A stretch of DNA of 64,000 bases from Hawksworthiomyces lignivorus. Lineage: Eukaryota; Ascomycota; Sordariomycetes; Ophiostomatales; Ophiostomataceae. The stretch spans positions 248,001 through 312,000 of the forward strand of contig NTMA01000023.1 in assembly GCA_002917075.1 (NCBI GenBank), given 5' to 3'. Position numbers and translations under genes: made by a program. Below the pieces are notes generated by a model. It was not told where the DNA came from and did no database searches. It saw only the letters and a program-made list of their open reading frames with translations. Below, piece by piece: positions 593-15,235 of the stretch; position 1 is the stretch's first letter, and each line of letters begins with the position of its first letter.

Positions 593-1618
593 CTAGCTGT
601 CCAAATCATACCATTGCCAGAGACGGCGAGGGTTATCGACGAATGTTCGTTGGATCTGGGCGTCGCTTCCACACCAGCCTTTAAGTACTTCTACAAGTGC
701 TGCATCGTTGACATCTCTATAATTTTGCGGGATTAGTCGTCCACCAGACTGTGCATTTCCCTCCTTGCTTCCTGTGTGCGGCCAGTCGCTGCCGTACACA
801 ACCATGTCTTGACCCGCGTTGATTATCGTCTCAGCTGTCACTCTCATATCTTCATAGAGTGGAGAATCTTTCGAGTTCTGGTAAGGTGCAGACAGCTTGA
901 CAAAGAGGAGCTTGCGGCGGACGAGATCAATTACTTCAGCAAACCCTTTAGTCGCATACGGATCAACTGTGTTCACAGTCACATTTGTTTTCGATCCCAC
1001 CTCTTGATGAGCATAGTGATCAGCGACAACCCTTACACCAAGGGCCGGAATAACATCATGCAGGCTGACGAAAGATGATATAGGCACCCAGATCTCAAGA
1101 ACCCAATTGTGAACCTTAGCCACGGCTGCATGCTTTTTGATGGTGGAGACGATCTCCTCGTCAGTGCCGTCGCTTCCATAATTTACTCGTAGCCCGCGCA
1201 CACCAGCATCATGCATTTGCTTTAACGTAACATTACTGATCGTATCCGGATCTACGACAGCAACTCCGCGGTATTTTCCTTTGAAGTGCGCTAAAGCATC
1301 TAGAAGTGCCGAGTTGTCTGTTCCATAAACACTTGGCGTAACAACCACAGCATGCTTTATTCCCCTGCTCTCTTGAAATTCAGTGGCATTCTGAACAGTA
1401 GCTGGCTTAGGTGTGTAATCTGGTTTACGGTCAGCGCCTATGCGCTTATTCATGGCTTATATTCGGGGATACTTACCTCGGTTTGGATCTAAAGGAAAGT
1501 TTTCAGGATCAATAATATGAATGTGTGAGTCCCTTACAGACACAGCATGGTTAGTAGACTACCGTGGAGTTTGCATTATATTCCCATACCAAGAGTTTGC
1601 TGGAAAGCGGGATGCCAT
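593..1618 (-). CDS. amidohydrolase-2 family lactonase (LigI-like), 3 exons
   Basis: Metal-dependent hydrolase of the amidohydrolase-2 family, closest in motif pattern to 2-pyrone-4,6-dicarboxylate lactonases; it would open a lactone or cyclic ester, probably in the cytosol. Exons on the minus strand are 1618-1590, 1532-1477 and 1419-593, giving 303 aa. Both introns are 57 nt; the second contains a GCTGACC branch point. Splicing creates the N-terminal SWDSHIHIIDP segment with the HxH metal motif (His13, His15), followed by FPLDPNRDYTPKPA, typical of the family. A VADHYAH segment, an FVKLSAPY segment and the catalytic Asp in GSDWPH (about residue 240) are all present, so it looks active. An in-frame ATG at 1627 would add three residues; 1618 has the better context (ACAATGG). 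It lies next to the dehydrogenase of the tricarboxylate set and has a TCGG-N7-CCG element about 215 bases upstream, so it may belong to that set. The substrate is inferred only. Confidence 0.9.
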
Positions 1619-1831
1619 TGTCGTCATCCAGCACAACGTTAAACTATCGTGAATTCTCATAGGTAGAAATGAGCTTCTAATACCGAATTGAGGTTCTGGG
1701 ACGAAATGGGCTAATGAAAGATTGTGGGAAATGGTGGTGATACTGCTTAGACGCTACCTTTTTATTTACCTCACAGTCGACAGGAGCTCTTCTTTTGAGA
1801 CGTACAGCCAAGCCGGAGAAGGCCGTAAAGT

Positions 1832-1845
1832 TCGGGGATGCTCCG
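1832..1845. promoter_or_regulatory. TCGG-N7-CCG inverted half-sites
   Basis: CGG at 1833-1835 and CCG at 1843-1845 separated by 7 bases, preceded by T. It lies about 215 bases upstream of the amidohydrolase start. Inverted CGG half-sites are the usual targets of Zn2Cys6 dimers; use by the regulator at 13083 is inference. Confidence 0.35.
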
Positions 1846-2704
1846 GATTATGACTCTTGCTTAAAGGCCTAGCATTGAGTGCTAGAACACAACATAATAT
1901 TTTATATATGCCGAATGGAAGTTTGGCCAAGATAGGACATTCCCGTTGGTGCCTGTAACATATGTGACTATGAGATCTACATATACATACAAGAGCGTTA
2001 TCCACGGCTCCTTTATTGGCTTTGTTAATAAGTAGCCCTGTCTGTAAATGATATCTATAGTAGCTACTGATGCAGGATTTTACTTTCCCTACTATGTATT
2101 TAATATCATTTCTGCAATATAGATCCCAAAGTTTGTAGACGGACGCAGTCTTTGATTGGCAGCATCCGATCCGATCAACTCTAGTGTCCACGTCTTACTG
2201 CTTATCTCTTTTTAGCGTATACATCCGAGGAAATTGTTTATTGTATAAGACCTCAGATAGAGAGCATCGACACGAAATGTAAGATACAGAACACTACATG
2301 TCAAGTACAACAATGAAGTCGACAACGGATAGTGGGGCCAAAGAATTATTAACCCTTTTGAATAAAAACAAATATTTTCTATGAAAAGGGAAGCAAAACA
2401 CCGGGTCGAGCTCAAAAAAATAATGCGTTGTCTTTCCACTGTTCGAGCTCTTCATCAGCGCCAGCATCGATTTGACGGTAAGTGTTTATAAGGCAATAAT
2501 CCGAATTAGACCAGTTGTGCAGAATGGATTTGATTTTGTTGAGCTTTATCTAAACGCCCGAGAGGGGAGGGGGGAGTTCGGATGGAGCCGATTAATCAAT
2601 AATTTATTATTGAAGACTGTTTACATGTTGGCATATTTTCTGTTATGGAGAAGGTGACCAAAATGCCCAAGTAAGCAGGTTAGGGCCAGAAAATACACCA
2701 ACAC

Positions 2705-2718
2705 TCGGGATTTCACCG
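2705..2718. promoter_or_regulatory. TCGG-N7-CCG inverted half-sites (first of two)
   Basis: CGG at 2706-2708 and CCG at 2716-2718, preceded by ACT and followed by GG. It lies about 245 bases upstream of the dehydrogenase ATG. A second element with the same ACTCGG start and the same spacing lies 56 bases downstream. Confidence 0.4.
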
Positions 2719-2760
2719 GGTTTGGCCGCCTAAGCTCACTTTAGGGGAAATGCCGGTGAC

Positions 2761-12540: not shown

Positions 12541-12554
12541 TCGGGACGCTGCCG
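12541..12554. promoter_or_regulatory. TCGG-N7-CCG inverted half-sites
   Basis: CGG at 12542-12544 and CCG at 12552-12554, flanked by T and A. It lies 38 bases upstream of the alternative PrpF start at 12503. If that upstream exon is used, this is a core-promoter position. Confidence 0.35.
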
Positions 12555-12981
12555 AGGAGCTCTTCCGTATCAATAAAATACTTGTCTAGGTGGTCAACAA
12601 ACGCATCTACACCATCCTAACCCTGGCACCCACACCATGAATCGCCACTTCTCATTACCCCACCCGGGACGTATGCGCCAATGCCACCTAACAATTCGGC
12701 TATATGATACTAGGCAGGCCAGGAGTTGCTCATAGTGACGTACTTGTCTATCAACGCAATCTACAAGGTGTCGTCTATTCATAGCGGTACTTCAGCTCGC
12801 AGAAACACTCACGGTGAGATGTTGCTGCCAAATTTGTCCAAATTTAATGTGACCGCATACGTCTAGTCAGCAAATTTGTATTCGCGTATTTACTGCAAGG
12901 GAGTTAGCCATCTTGAAAATCGGGCAAAAGCCGGACAGTGCTAATAGAGTATGCACCTGCACATATATAGAATAGAATCAG

Positions 12982-12995
12982 TCGGCTAGGTCCGA
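12982..12995. promoter_or_regulatory. TCGG-N6-CCGA inverted half-sites
   Basis: TCGG CTAGGT CCGA, 88 bases upstream of the Zn2Cys6 regulator start. Same flanking T and A and same spacing as the palindrome in the carrier/aconitase promoter. This would allow autoregulation. Confidence 0.5.
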
Positions 12996-13082
12996 CGGCG
13001 AAATCCTACTCCAGACCCCAATGGCGCTCGTCTAACAACCCCCGACTCATTATTGAAAATCTTTGTGAAAAAAAGACAAAGC

Positions 13083-15235
13083 ATGGATAATGTGCAGTCC
13101 GTTGCCTCGGCCTCTCCAGGCGGCACGGGGCGCCGTGAGAGAACAGGCAGGCAACCTTCACCCCAACGCGTCCACAAGCGGAATGCAGGCGCCTGCGAAC
13201 GTTGCCGCCGCAGAAAGCAGAAGGTACGCTGAGACATGAGATGCTCTATTATCATTTATACACATGGCTCATTAGTGCTCTATCCACATTAAAGTGTGAT
13301 GCTAAGCATCCTATCTGTGGCCCTTGTGCTCTTGCTGGTGTCACGTGTGTGCCCTCGGAGCGCTTCGTCGTTCGGTCCGATCCATGTTGTGACTGCACTG
13401 AGATGCGCGAACAGGTTCGCCAGCTCCAAGACCGCGTTCAGCTGCTAACACAGCAGCTCACAAGCACTGTCAATGATACTACACATACACTCCGTGACAG
13501 AACCAGGAGTAACGACAACCTGCTAGGCGCCAATCATGTCACACACCCCCCCAACTCTGGCGCTACTTATACTGGCCGCATCCTACGTCCTACCTTTACG
13601 TCGCCCACTTTTGATGAGAGCCCTAGTGACCTACATAAATCTGGCTTCCACAGCAGTCCCTGGATGCTATGGGCAAACGATGATGGCACTCCTACGGTGA
13701 GCCCTCTGGAACACATAGACGCGGCAGCTCCTCCAACAGCCTTTGACGACTACACGACTGAGCTCGTTGACATCTTCTTTGCTCATCGATGGCCACAGCT
13801 GCCTATCCTTCACCGAGCTACTTTCCTAAATGAACACTATCTGCCTCTATCACGGGGCGAGCCGGCCCACCTTCTATCGGTCTACCTGGTCCATATGGTA
13901 TTGGCCATTGCTGCTGCGGAGAAACGGCCTGGAAGCCTCGTACGCCACCAGTGTCCATCACACGAGGACTTCTTCCGCACTGCTGCGGACCATCTGTGCC
14001 ACGTGCTGCAGACACCTGACGACCTCAGCTGCATCCAATGCCTGCTGTTGCTATGCATGTATGGATGCAACGAGCCCCAGAAAGTAAACATGTGGTATAC
14101 CACAGGCTTGGCCCTGCGGCTGGCCATTGGCCTCGACCTGCACCGCTCAGAGTCCACTGCCAACATGAGCTTCTTTTCTCGCGAGATGGCGAGACGCTTG
14201 TTCTGGGGCGTCTATGTTATGGATCGCAGCATGGCAATTGCACTGGGCCGGCCACTCGGCATCCAGGACGCGGATATCACGTCAGAATTACCGCTAAGGC
14301 TTGCCGACGAACAGGTCTGCGAGGGATTGGAGTACGCAGGTCACGACAATCCTCCGTCGTCGGACGATTGCCAGGACGAAGACCTGTCTACATTTATCCA
14401 CGTGATCAAGCTGCGCCGCATCAACGCAGATATCTATTCGACGCTTCATCTACCGTCACTGTGCGGCACACACATGGACGAGTCAACACTGGGGAACCTG
14501 CGTAAGAAACAGTACAAGCGACTCAACGAATGGTTGATGTCGGCACCACGCTACTTTCCAGCACCCCGCAGCATGTTCCAGATGCCCGAGTGGTTCCAGA
14601 TTGCCTACCACCAGGCCATCTTATCGCTCTATCGGCCGTCATGTGTGGCTCCAGCATCCGGCTCTATGGACGCCGTCCGCCTCAGTCTGGATTCCTCTAT
14701 CAGCCTACTCAGCTGCTACGCGGCGCTGTACGCTAAAAACAGGGTCACATACACCTTTGTTGCTCTCAACTCCATTTTCATGGCCGGTATTACCATGTTG
14801 CACACGTTGCGTGCCAACGCCACTGTCCGGCACGAGCTTAGCCGTGCCGCTGCCGAGGCCAACATCCGCTCTTGTATTGTGTTGTTGCGGGGCATTGCCG
14901 TTGGCCGGCCCGTTGGCGAGCGCTGTGCCCAGATAATTGACCGCCTCGGTAACAACACCCTAGCTATCTTTGATAAAAGCCCGTTGGAGTTAGTAGGCCA
15001 CTCAGGGAGTGCAAGCGGTCGTGATCAGGTAGACGTTGAATTCCTAGCTTGGTTTGGCCTGAAATTACAGGGATACTCTGGTGCAGGTCTGGTGCTTGGC
15101 GGAGACAACTTTGAATTTCAGTCTGATTCAGCCCAAGTTAACAGCACACCAGACATCGACGTAGCGTGGAACGAATTCCTATCATCTGGCTTTGATCTTA
15201 ATAACAGACGAAACTATTTAGATGTATTTTTCTGA
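13083..15235 (+). CDS. Zn2Cys6 transcription factor with fungal_trans domain, 2 exons
   Basis: Nuclear DNA-binding regulator, 693 aa. Exons 13083-13223 and 13295-15235; the 71-nt intron splits the zinc cluster between Lys47 and Cys48, a common place in fungal genes. Zinc ligands are Cys38, 41, 48, 55, 58 and 65. A dimerising heptad region follows (EMREQVRQLQDRVQLLTQQL, about residues 85-105), then a Ser/Thr-rich linker and the middle-homology domain from about residue 190 to 480 (DIFFAHRWPQLPILHRATF, ARRLFWGVYVMDRSMAIALGRP). Encoded divergently from the PrpF isomerase and inside the tricarboxylate gene set, so it is the likely pathway activator. A TCGG-N6-CCGA element precedes it. No frameshift or missing ligand is seen. 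Confidence 0.93.

Follow-up and report, generated by a model that had tools for sequence, protein, structure and literature searches.

A conserved PrpF-aconitase pair within a seven-gene cluster of Hawksworthiomyces lignivorus and its possible role in trans-aconitate catabolism

In the window (the whole stretch of 64,000 nucleotides that was analysed), seven intact neighbouring genes were found, the core of which, a PrpF-family isomerase and an aconitase, is conserved and occurs together in several other fungi. We tentatively suggest that the cluster may degrade trans-aconitate or a very close tricarboxylate via this pair. Its substrate, direction and compartment, as well as the role of its LigI-like gene, are what we infer from sequence. 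The gene models are as follows:

593..1618, minus strand, LigI-like amidohydrolase (PF04909), 303 aa; 3 exons 1618-1590, 1532-1477, 1419-593
2962..4017, plus strand, IDH-type beta-decarboxylating dehydrogenase of apparent bacterial lineage, 351 aa; 1 exon
4568..6361, plus strand, MFS permease of the sugar-porter family (PF00083), 555 aa; 3 exons 4568-4695, 4754-5847, 5916-6361
6559..7844, minus strand, YHM2-type mitochondrial carrier, 302 aa; 6 exons, three Mito_carr repeats
8141..10784, plus strand, mitochondrial-type aconitase of a separate fungal subfamily (ACGPCCGSW loop), 800 aa; 4 exons 8141-8334, 8422-8984, 9054-9703, 9789-10784
11067..12305, minus strand, PrpF-family delta-isomerase, 412 aa; 1 exon, presequence-like N-terminus
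13083..15235, plus strand, Zn2Cys6 regulator (PF00172 and PF04082), 693 aa; 2 exons 13083-13223, 13295-15235

Splice sites were picked by eye to match protein families, without transcripts, and the first splice site of the permease model is ambiguous. After intron removal, all seven genes were free of frameshifts and internal stops, and the family of each protein was confirmed by Pfam; the module proposed in the initial annotation thus exists, with the amidohydrolase start corrected from 1453 to 1618. The proposed lack of a decarboxylase was supported as well: no match to the itaconate-decarboxylase families PF03972 (MmgE/PrpD, CadA) and PF00206 (Lyase_1, Tad1) was found on the contig.

The pairing of PrpF with the aconitase was read by eye among the 120 matches listed for each protein. 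Among these, PrpF and a subfamily aconitase share a contig in seven of ten comparable species and lie on different contigs in three. The locus tags are adjacent in Neopestalotiopsis clavispora (G7054_g10520/g10521) and near-adjacent in Fusarium decemcellulare (FDECE_12405/12407), and five more species hold both genes on one contig. The initial annotation had staked its reading on co-location in related genomes, which was thus found for this pair among the matches listed. All seven co-located aconitases have the CS loop and fall within the clade of 15 that holds the cluster aconitase (100% SH-aLRT support, tree of 37 chosen rows).

This aconitase subfamily has CCGSW in the Fe-S loop, in contrast to CIGQW, and the signature is carried by 78 of the best 84 aconitase matches. 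Of the genome's two other paralogues at about 51%, one has CIGQW and the other has no such loop motif. When aligned with pig aconitase (5acn), the cluster protein matches in the Fe-S cysteines and in the residues that we take to form the active site. Shewanella PrpF has been crystallised with trans-aconitate, and the residues equivalent to its K73 and C107 are kept in the cluster PrpF. Conserved columns are changed in 0 of 135 cases in PrpF (median match 1) and in 5 of 266 in the aconitase (median match 2), and both have long end branches in the trees (0.68 vs. a median of 0.24, and 0.48 vs. 0.17, respectively). Compartments were judged from N-terminal composition rather than by a predictor. 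The first 55 residues of PrpF include no acidic residue and the first 40 of the aconitase only one; these presequence-like N-termini fit the earlier proposal of entry to mitochondria for conversion. The first 40 residues of the dehydrogenase contain three acidic residues and no presequence, and none was seen in the amidohydrolase.

The carrier resembles yeast YHM2 and the YHM2-type paralogue of the same genome (at C160, with 58% identity across residues 59-289), and not the CTP-type Mtt1. YHM2 is described as a citrate/2-oxoglutarate antiporter.

Four full TCGG-N6-CCGA sites lie across three divergent promoters, which serve six of the seven cluster genes, while the permease promoter has the motif core only. 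The sites, given without strand, are:

2578..2591, full site in the divergent amidohydrolase/dehydrogenase promoter, 371 bases to the dehydrogenase start and 960 to the amidohydrolase start
4246..4257, CGG-N6-CCG core upstream of the permease, without the full TCGG/CCGA flanks
7962..8000, two full sites (7962 and 7987) in the divergent carrier/aconitase promoter, 118-166 bases from both starts
12982..12995, full site in the divergent PrpF/regulator promoter, 88 bases to the regulator start and 677 to the PrpF start

Core-only sites also occur at 1814 and 2717 in the amidohydrolase/dehydrogenase promoter. Based on the 571 full sites of the genome, 0.039 would be expected in the 2,966 promoter bases that hold four (P ~9e-8, uncorrected for the k-mer and dyad scans and the 105 monad/gap combinations that were tried). 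The Zn2Cys6 protein, which carries both the C6 motif and the Fungal_trans domain, probably pairs with these candidate sites and would turn the cluster genes on through them. It should be noted that the core-only permease promoter and the distances to the PrpF and LigI-like starts count against the trans-aconitate reading.

We suggest the following pathway for trans-aconitate catabolism. Uptake of the acid would fall to the sugar-porter permease. In the mitochondrion, its predicted location, PrpF would convert trans-aconitate to cis-aconitate, and the dedicated aconitase, for which the same location is predicted, would hydrate this to isocitrate or citrate. Trans-aconitate, a plant acid with an inhibitory effect on the citric acid cycle, is described as an inhibitor of aconitase, and the dedicated enzyme is perhaps tolerant of it. 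The YHM2-type carrier would then move the product out in exchange for 2-oxoglutarate, and cytosolic formation of 2-oxoglutarate by the dehydrogenase, whose N-terminus shows no presequence, would close the shuttle. The LigI-like lactonase of the initial annotation stands as a gene and a family but has no step in this route; it possibly opens the lactone form of an intermediate. The tricarboxylate module as first read is retained in part: intact genes, PrpF-aconitase co-location, the promoter motif and presequence-like N-termini speak for it, while the isocitrate dehydrogenase step, the role of the LigI-like enzyme and a parallel with AcnD-PrpF find no support in the form first given.

The dehydrogenase had been called isocitrate-type, which is now in doubt. 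In the tree it nests inside a bacterial clade, outside the fungal/mitochondrial IDH lineage, and the gene was apparently acquired from bacteria; judging from its relatives, the enzyme probably uses NAD. It scores 304 bits on TIGR00175, below the cut-off of 432, and has 1 of 123 conserved columns changed (median match 1); an additional conserved loop precedes its S-x-N motif, and RENTEG is replaced by REITED. The S, N, R, R, R and Y positions, which presumably bind isocitrate, are retained. Among the matches listed, the dehydrogenase and aconitase genes are on separate contigs in four of the five comparable fungi (those for which the two genes were listed and seem to come from a single assembly). 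Bacterial loci of its clade (n = 26) contain genes for an IolO-like epimerase (15), an Asp/Glu-racemase-family protein (13), a DUF1537 acid-sugar kinase (12), a class II aldolase (9) and a citrate-type symporter (5), and the operons look like acid-sugar pathways. By NCBIfam model names, with scores below the cut-offs, they include genes of the tetronate pathway (3-oxo-tetronate kinase / decarboxylase type), whereas the seven fungal genes include no such partner. Such kin point to a hydroxylated substrate, and together with the separate contigs in fungi they indicate that this 'IDH' need not use isocitrate. The bacterial context argues for caution with the trans-aconitate reading. Against that reading also count the three species with PrpF and aconitase on different contigs, the long end branches of both proteins and the scores of PrpF below the cut-offs of both isomerase models.

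It is possible, though we consider it somewhat unlikely, that the cluster acts on a different acid, probably a hydroxylated or lactonised tricarboxylic one. The LigI-like enzyme would open the lactone, the aconitase and PrpF would shift the hydroxyl group and the double bond, and the dehydrogenase would oxidatively decarboxylate a hydroxylated 3-substituted malate. This would account for the presence of the LigI-like gene, and it agrees with the acid-sugar-type loci of the dehydrogenase clade and with the clade's own loop near the substrate-binding motif. LigI-like genes occur in 3 of the 28 close dehydrogenase loci and in none of the 52 distant loci, but these matches are just ~28-31% identical. 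Against a different acid also stand the pig-like residues of the aconitase and the kept isocitrate-binding positions, and since the dehydrogenase is on another contig in four of the five comparable fungi, PrpF and the aconitase can apparently function with no such gene in the vicinity.

An improbable alternative to trans-aconitate catabolism is that the cluster produces and secretes trans-aconitate, the second aconitase (and the dehydrogenase) being resistant. The permease, ~5 kb from PrpF, is a sugar porter, a family of mostly importers, and a dehydrogenase draining isocitrate would oppose production. On the other side, the additional aconitase could be a resistant copy, and Adi1, a PrpF-family isomerase, is described as reversible with the trans form favoured 88 to 12 (PMC4720413). 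The bacterial TarA and TbrA are reported to be interchangeable, with the transporter named as the likely determinant of direction (PMC11495376). However, both Ustilago enzymes are described as cytosolic (PMC4720413), in contrast to the presequence-like N-terminus of the cluster PrpF.

A remnant of protocatechuate/gallate 4,5-cleavage, with LigI-like and oxalomesaconate-tautomerase-like genes, is very improbable. PrpF scores best on the NCBIfam oxalomesaconate tautomerase model (307 bits vs. 276 on the methylaconitate PrpF model, neither reaching cut-offs of ~440), but the other two PrpF genes of the genome prefer the same model, and the methylitaconate and methylaconitate isomerases of solved structure (229 and 223 bits) outscore the oxalomesaconate isomerase (201). 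The solved structure nearest to the amidohydrolase is 2-pyrone-4,6-dicarboxylate hydrolase, LigI (4d8l); the HxH, a later His and the Asp that we take to be its active site are retained, while three of the four arginines that presumably bind the substrate carboxylates in LigI are replaced, by Asp, His and Gln. Moreover, no LigB-type dioxygenase match was found on this contig, and the aconitase and carrier would be left unexplained.

Less probable still is that the cluster parallels the AcnD-PrpF methylcitrate route of bacteria: aconitase and PrpF are neighbours, but the two aconitase ORF pieces fit the mitochondrial model TIGR01340 (615 and 387 bits) and fail AcnD (124 and 66 bits, cut-off 1420), and no citrate synthase family (PF00285) match was found on this contig. 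Chance neighbours without a common function are the least credible reading, for although the dehydrogenase looks horizontally derived and lies apart in most comparable fungi among the matches listed, the promoter motif is shared, PrpF and aconitase pair elsewhere in fungi, and the chance of one of each family meeting randomly within 15 kb is ~1e-7 (the calculation took 6, 9 and 2 loci; the 43.7 Mb genome has 3 PrpF, 7 aconitase-superfamily, 10 PF00180 and 2 YHM2-type loci).

If trans-aconitate catabolism is the function, the cluster could conceivably, though this is rather doubtful, be the first eukaryotic system to burn this acid, in which this lineage has coupled a PrpF-aconitase pair, under one regulator and via a citrate/2-oxoglutarate carrier, to a dehydrogenase taken over from sugar-acid operons of bacteria. 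The literature searched yielded no fungal cluster for trans-aconitate catabolism, whereas bacterial use is known. The pair gives one fungal aconitase subfamily a testable role, and the dehydrogenase is a clear candidate for a bacterial enzyme recruited into a fungal catabolic cluster. Among the six-carbon organic acids of sugarcane and sweet sorghum, aconitic acid is described as the most prevalent (PMC8871043), and the cluster supplies genes for making or consuming it industrially.

Among known systems, the AcnD-PrpF route of Shewanella (PMC5690661, as far as its description goes) likewise pairs an aconitase-superfamily enzyme with PrpF, but the cluster aconitase is of a different type. The fungal extra aconitases AcoB/Aco2 are, like the cluster aconitase, described as mitochondrial-type paralogues, and Aspergillus AcoB as inactive on the substrates tested (PMC3556520); the cluster subfamily has the CCGSW loop, a contrast drawn with the genome's own two other paralogues. 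As described (PMC4720413), the Aspergillus terreus cadA cluster has a mitochondrial carrier, permease and transcription factor in common with ours, which lacks an MmgE/PrpD-family match on its contig. The Ustilago maydis itaconate cluster adi1/tad1/mtt1/itp1/ria1, as described there, shares a PrpF-family aconitate isomerase, a mitochondrial tricarboxylate carrier, an MFS transporter and a regulator; here, the contig has no Lyase_1 match, the carrier is YHM2-type and not CTP-type, the permease is a sugar porter and not EmrD-like, PrpF has a presequence-like N-terminus, and an aconitase, a dehydrogenase and a LigI-like gene are added. The available description of the bacterial tarAB/tarR system of Bacillus velezensis (PMC11495376) names neither a dedicated aconitase nor a carrier, a dehydrogenase or a LigI-like gene, and the regulator of our cluster is of the Zn2Cys6 type; nevertheless, the tar operon, like the cluster, combines a PrpF-superfamily isomerase with an MFS transporter, there an importer, and an adjoining dedicated regulator.

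The seven genes reported in the initial annotation were all found to be intact and to belong to the families named there, based on hand-made intron models, translation and family profiles. The carrier gave a weak Pfam match in raw frames and, when spliced, a full carrier of 302 residues with three repeats. Within this genome it is closest to another YHM2-like gene, on contig C160 (58% identity over residues 59–289); from this pair and from the likeness to the yeast protein, we take the carrier to be of the YHM2 type. The genome (43.7 Mb in 191 contigs) contains three PrpF, seven aconitase-superfamily, ten PF00180 and two YHM2-type loci. 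The chance of one of each lying within 15 kb is near 1e-7, as computed with 6, 9 and 2 loci for aconitase, PF00180 and the YHM2 type, respectively. The earlier observation of a cluster stands and is made stronger. One of the PF00180 copies (C73:28172–29104), situated where a short contig ends, has one in-frame TAA, which may be an intron or the sign of a broken copy.

The annotation had suggested looking for co-location in other fungi, and for PrpF and aconitase this was observed in 7 of 10 comparable species among the matches listed. Linkage was assessed by locus tags and equal contig sizes, paired by eye, with 120 matches listed for each of three protein searches. In Neopestalotiopsis clavispora, the best aconitase match (G7054_g10520) has the tag next to that of PrpF (G7054_g10521), both on an 89-kb contig, and in Fusarium decemcellulare FDECE_12405 and FDECE_12407 share a 56-kb contig. 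Both proteins were also assigned to contigs of equal size in Xylaria grammica, Hypoxylon trugodes, Hypomontagnella monticulosa, Colletotrichum sp. SAR 10_70 and Aspergillus steynii; same-contig pairs on multi-megabase contigs are weaker support than the two locus-tag pairs. The genes were on separate contigs in A. falconensis, A. nomiae and A. ellipticus, the aconitase match of the last being divergent. A. wentii, Clonostachys rosea and Fusarium solani (differing assemblies) and Pestalotiopsis NC0098 (an ordinary-type aconitase among the matches listed) were set aside. In five annotations that we place in the Aspergillus niger group (P0263, P0292, P0299, P0315 and P0316), the aconitase is fused to an N-terminal sugar-porter MFS, probably through the merging of two adjoining genes. 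Since the sugar-porter part has 25–27% identity to the permease of the window, the niger-group aconitase has a neighbouring permease, but another one.

A tree built from 37 selected sequences (SH-aLRT support only) placed the aconitase of the window and all seven PrpF-linked aconitases in a clade of 15 with 100% support, apart from the ordinary mitochondrial aconitases. The ordinary enzyme of this genome is encoded on C105 (82% identity to canonical aconitase across the compared exon). The Fe-S ligand loop of the subfamily reads ACGPCCGSW, and its CS was present in 78 of the 84 best matches, the others having CA (two) or no match to the loop pattern (four). Among the next 36 matches, 28 had the canonical IQ, two CS, two SS and four no match. 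In alignment with pig aconitase, the residues that we take to be catalytic are the same. Five of 266 conserved columns are changed in the aconitase of the window (median match 2) and 0 of 135 in its PrpF (median match 1); the end branches of both proteins are long in the trees. Two more mitochondrial-type aconitases, on C1 (L010) and C117 (L009), have about 51–53% identity to the canonical one and are possibly of the AcoB type.

The PrpF of the window outscored both paralogues on both NCBIfam isomerase models, with scores below both cut-offs. All three proteins scored higher on the oxalomesaconate model, and because this preference is common to them, it does not point to one substrate. The nearest solved structures are methylitaconate and methylaconitate isomerases. 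The second PrpF gene (L032:6667–8037) lies at about 84–102 kb of C143 (stretches L032 and L033) accompanied by a sugar-porter MFS, an ORF resembling a fungal transcription factor and a mitochondrial carrier of three repeats (L033:950–1666; CTP/Mtt1-like by eye), a gene set resembling that of Ustilago; the sole Lyase_1 match on this contig, among the matches listed, is about 120 kb away. The third PrpF gene (C162, about 18–19 kb; L034:8022–9401) has a presequence-like N-terminus and neighbours that appear housekeeping-like by eye (CTR9-like and aldehyde-dehydrogenase-like).

The promoters of the cluster share a candidate regulatory site. Among 105 combinations (five CGG-like half-site pairs at 21 spacings) scanned over the four promoters, namely the three divergent ones and that of the permease, only CGG-N6-CCG and TCG-N8-CGA occurred in at least three, and the cluster sites of the latter were a subset of the same places. 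The extended form TCGG-N6-CCGA has 571 sites genome-wide and five in the window against 0.68 expected, a number reached by none of 100 shuffles. Four of the five are located in the divergent promoters, at 118 to 166 bases from the starts of the carrier and aconitase, 88 from the regulator and 371 from the dehydrogenase, with longer distances for PrpF (677 bases) and the LigI-like gene (960 bases). The fifth site, at 62621, is within an open reading frame remote from the cluster. Upstream of the permease there is the core CGG-N6-CCG only; over the window, this core shows moderate enrichment (20 sites against 11.4 expected; two of 100 shuffles reach 20). The scan of exact words (7- to 10-mers) found one 7-mer common to all four promoters and none longer, and no 4-base inverted pair was present in all four. 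At the second PrpF locus there was no enrichment (one core site in L032, none in L033). The spacing presumably resembles that of Ppr1/UaY; a literature search on the site returned no citable paper. Two other genes of the window are as follows:

15604–17523 (−): DHA2/siderophore-transporter-like MFS gene adjoining the regulator, with one core CGG-N6-CCG upstream at 17886
18548–19717 (+): FAD-dependent monooxygenase gene (FAD_binding_3; nearest NCBIfam model PRK07588)

The siderophore-transporter-like gene might belong to the cluster.

The trans-aconitate reading is, tentatively, the most economical one for the PrpF–aconitase core. The N-termini of PrpF and aconitase are arginine-rich and nearly acid-free, and the dehydrogenase and LigI-like enzyme are without such a stretch (localisation was read off N-terminal composition rather than from prediction software). 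YHM2 is described as a citrate/2-oxoglutarate antiporter, and a carrier of this type would, by a putative shuttle, connect aconitase in the mitochondria with a dehydrogenase yielding 2-oxoglutarate in the cytosol.

The main rival, which we consider less likely, is that the cluster acts on a similar tricarboxylate that is more hydroxylated or is lactonised; it owes this place to the dehydrogenase's ancestry and to the inclusion of a LigI-like gene. The best dehydrogenase matches are fungal (up to 82% identity), with Saccharomonospora (74%) and Amycolatopsis (72%) among them and other bacteria following. The tree of 55 sequences, which from this match list took 22 of 24 fungal-named matches (two short ones dropped) and nine bacterial-named ones and excluded matches lacking an organism name, grouped 23 fungal sequences, including that of the window, with two actinobacterial ones (100/99). 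This group lies inside bacteria (next branches 95/93 and 89/81), with no clear grouping of fungi alone (68/15). Close bacterial kin are sparse: at E 1e-110, a threshold that the first order's own seed (50% identity) also falls short of, searches of two orders found them in 0 of 397 and in 1 of 399 genomes, this single one being the seed itself. At 26 bacterial loci with a clear dehydrogenase frame, the neighbours, named from one representative per family, included IolO-like epimerase (15), Asp/Glu-racemase-family (13), DUF1537 acid-sugar kinase (12), class II aldolase (9), DUF6282 (9), Ldh_2 dehydrogenase (6) and citrate-type symporter (5) genes. These sets resemble tetronate-type pathways, so by analogy a hydroxylated substrate for the dehydrogenase clade is plausible; a literature search on acid-sugar operons listed nothing on this clade. 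A LigI-like gene occurred at 3 of 28 close bacterial loci against 0 of 52 distant ones, and PrpF at one close locus and no distant ones. Aconitase-like neighbours were not counted since they are no commoner in close (5/28) than in distant loci (9/52, all archaeal).

The LigI-like enzyme is nearest to 2-pyrone-4,6-dicarboxylate hydrolase; by the residue roles that we assume, its histidines and aspartate are kept and three substrate-holding arginines are lost. The opening of a lactone is a natural guess. In the dehydrogenase clade, the positions that we take to bind isocitrate in known enzymes are kept, with an extra conserved loop directly before them, and one of 123 conserved columns is changed in the protein of the window (median match 1). 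Among the matches listed, the dehydrogenase shared a contig with aconitase in one of five comparable fungi (Hypomontagnella; separate in F. kuroshium, F. nematophilum, C. truncatum and Zasmidium) and with PrpF in one of three (Hypomontagnella; separate in F. torreyae and Ilyonectria). C. tropicale and F. decemcellulare, whose assemblies differ or may differ, were set aside from the former comparison, and F. decemcellulare and A. lentulus from the latter. For this reason, the dehydrogenase looks like a facultative partner of the cluster, though it stands behind the shared motif in H. lignivorus.

The genome family searches scored the best candidates, and absences refer to the matches listed. 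Itaconate production was rejected on this basis: the contig had no MmgE/PrpD or Lyase_1 match among those listed, in agreement with the lack of a decarboxylase pointed out originally. The suggested parallel to AcnD-PrpF methylcitrate dehydration was not borne out, as the aconitase fails the family model and no citrate synthase match was listed on the contig. Likewise, 4,5-cleavage of protocatechuate or gallate was discarded, with no LigB match on the contig among those listed. Elsewhere in the genome, an argininosuccinate-lyase-like Lyase_1 gene adjoins an MmgE/PrpD gene (C19:109001–116500; L120), a pair presumably resembling iminodisuccinate lyase and epimerase, and a citrate-synthase-family gene lies close to two PrpD-family genes (C141, about 32–37.5 kb), a set that we take to be typical of alkylcitrate/maleidride biosynthesis.

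Returning to trans-aconitate, a literature search with most subscription journals outside it gave, among the papers listed, no fungal trans-aconitate catabolic cluster, PrpF–aconitase cluster or YHM2–aconitate link, and a word search of the bacterial trans-aconitate paper (PMC11495376) for fungi, fungus and eukaryot gave no hit. As that paper describes it, the bacterial assimilation of trans-aconitate pairs a PrpF-family isomerase with an MFS importer (PMC11495376). The Ustilago itaconate route also employs a PrpF-family isomerase, which is cytosolic there, and its product is exported (PMC4720413). In H. lignivorus, the predicted mitochondrial PrpF–aconitase pair, together with the sugar-porter permease and the dehydrogenase, would fit consumption better than production.
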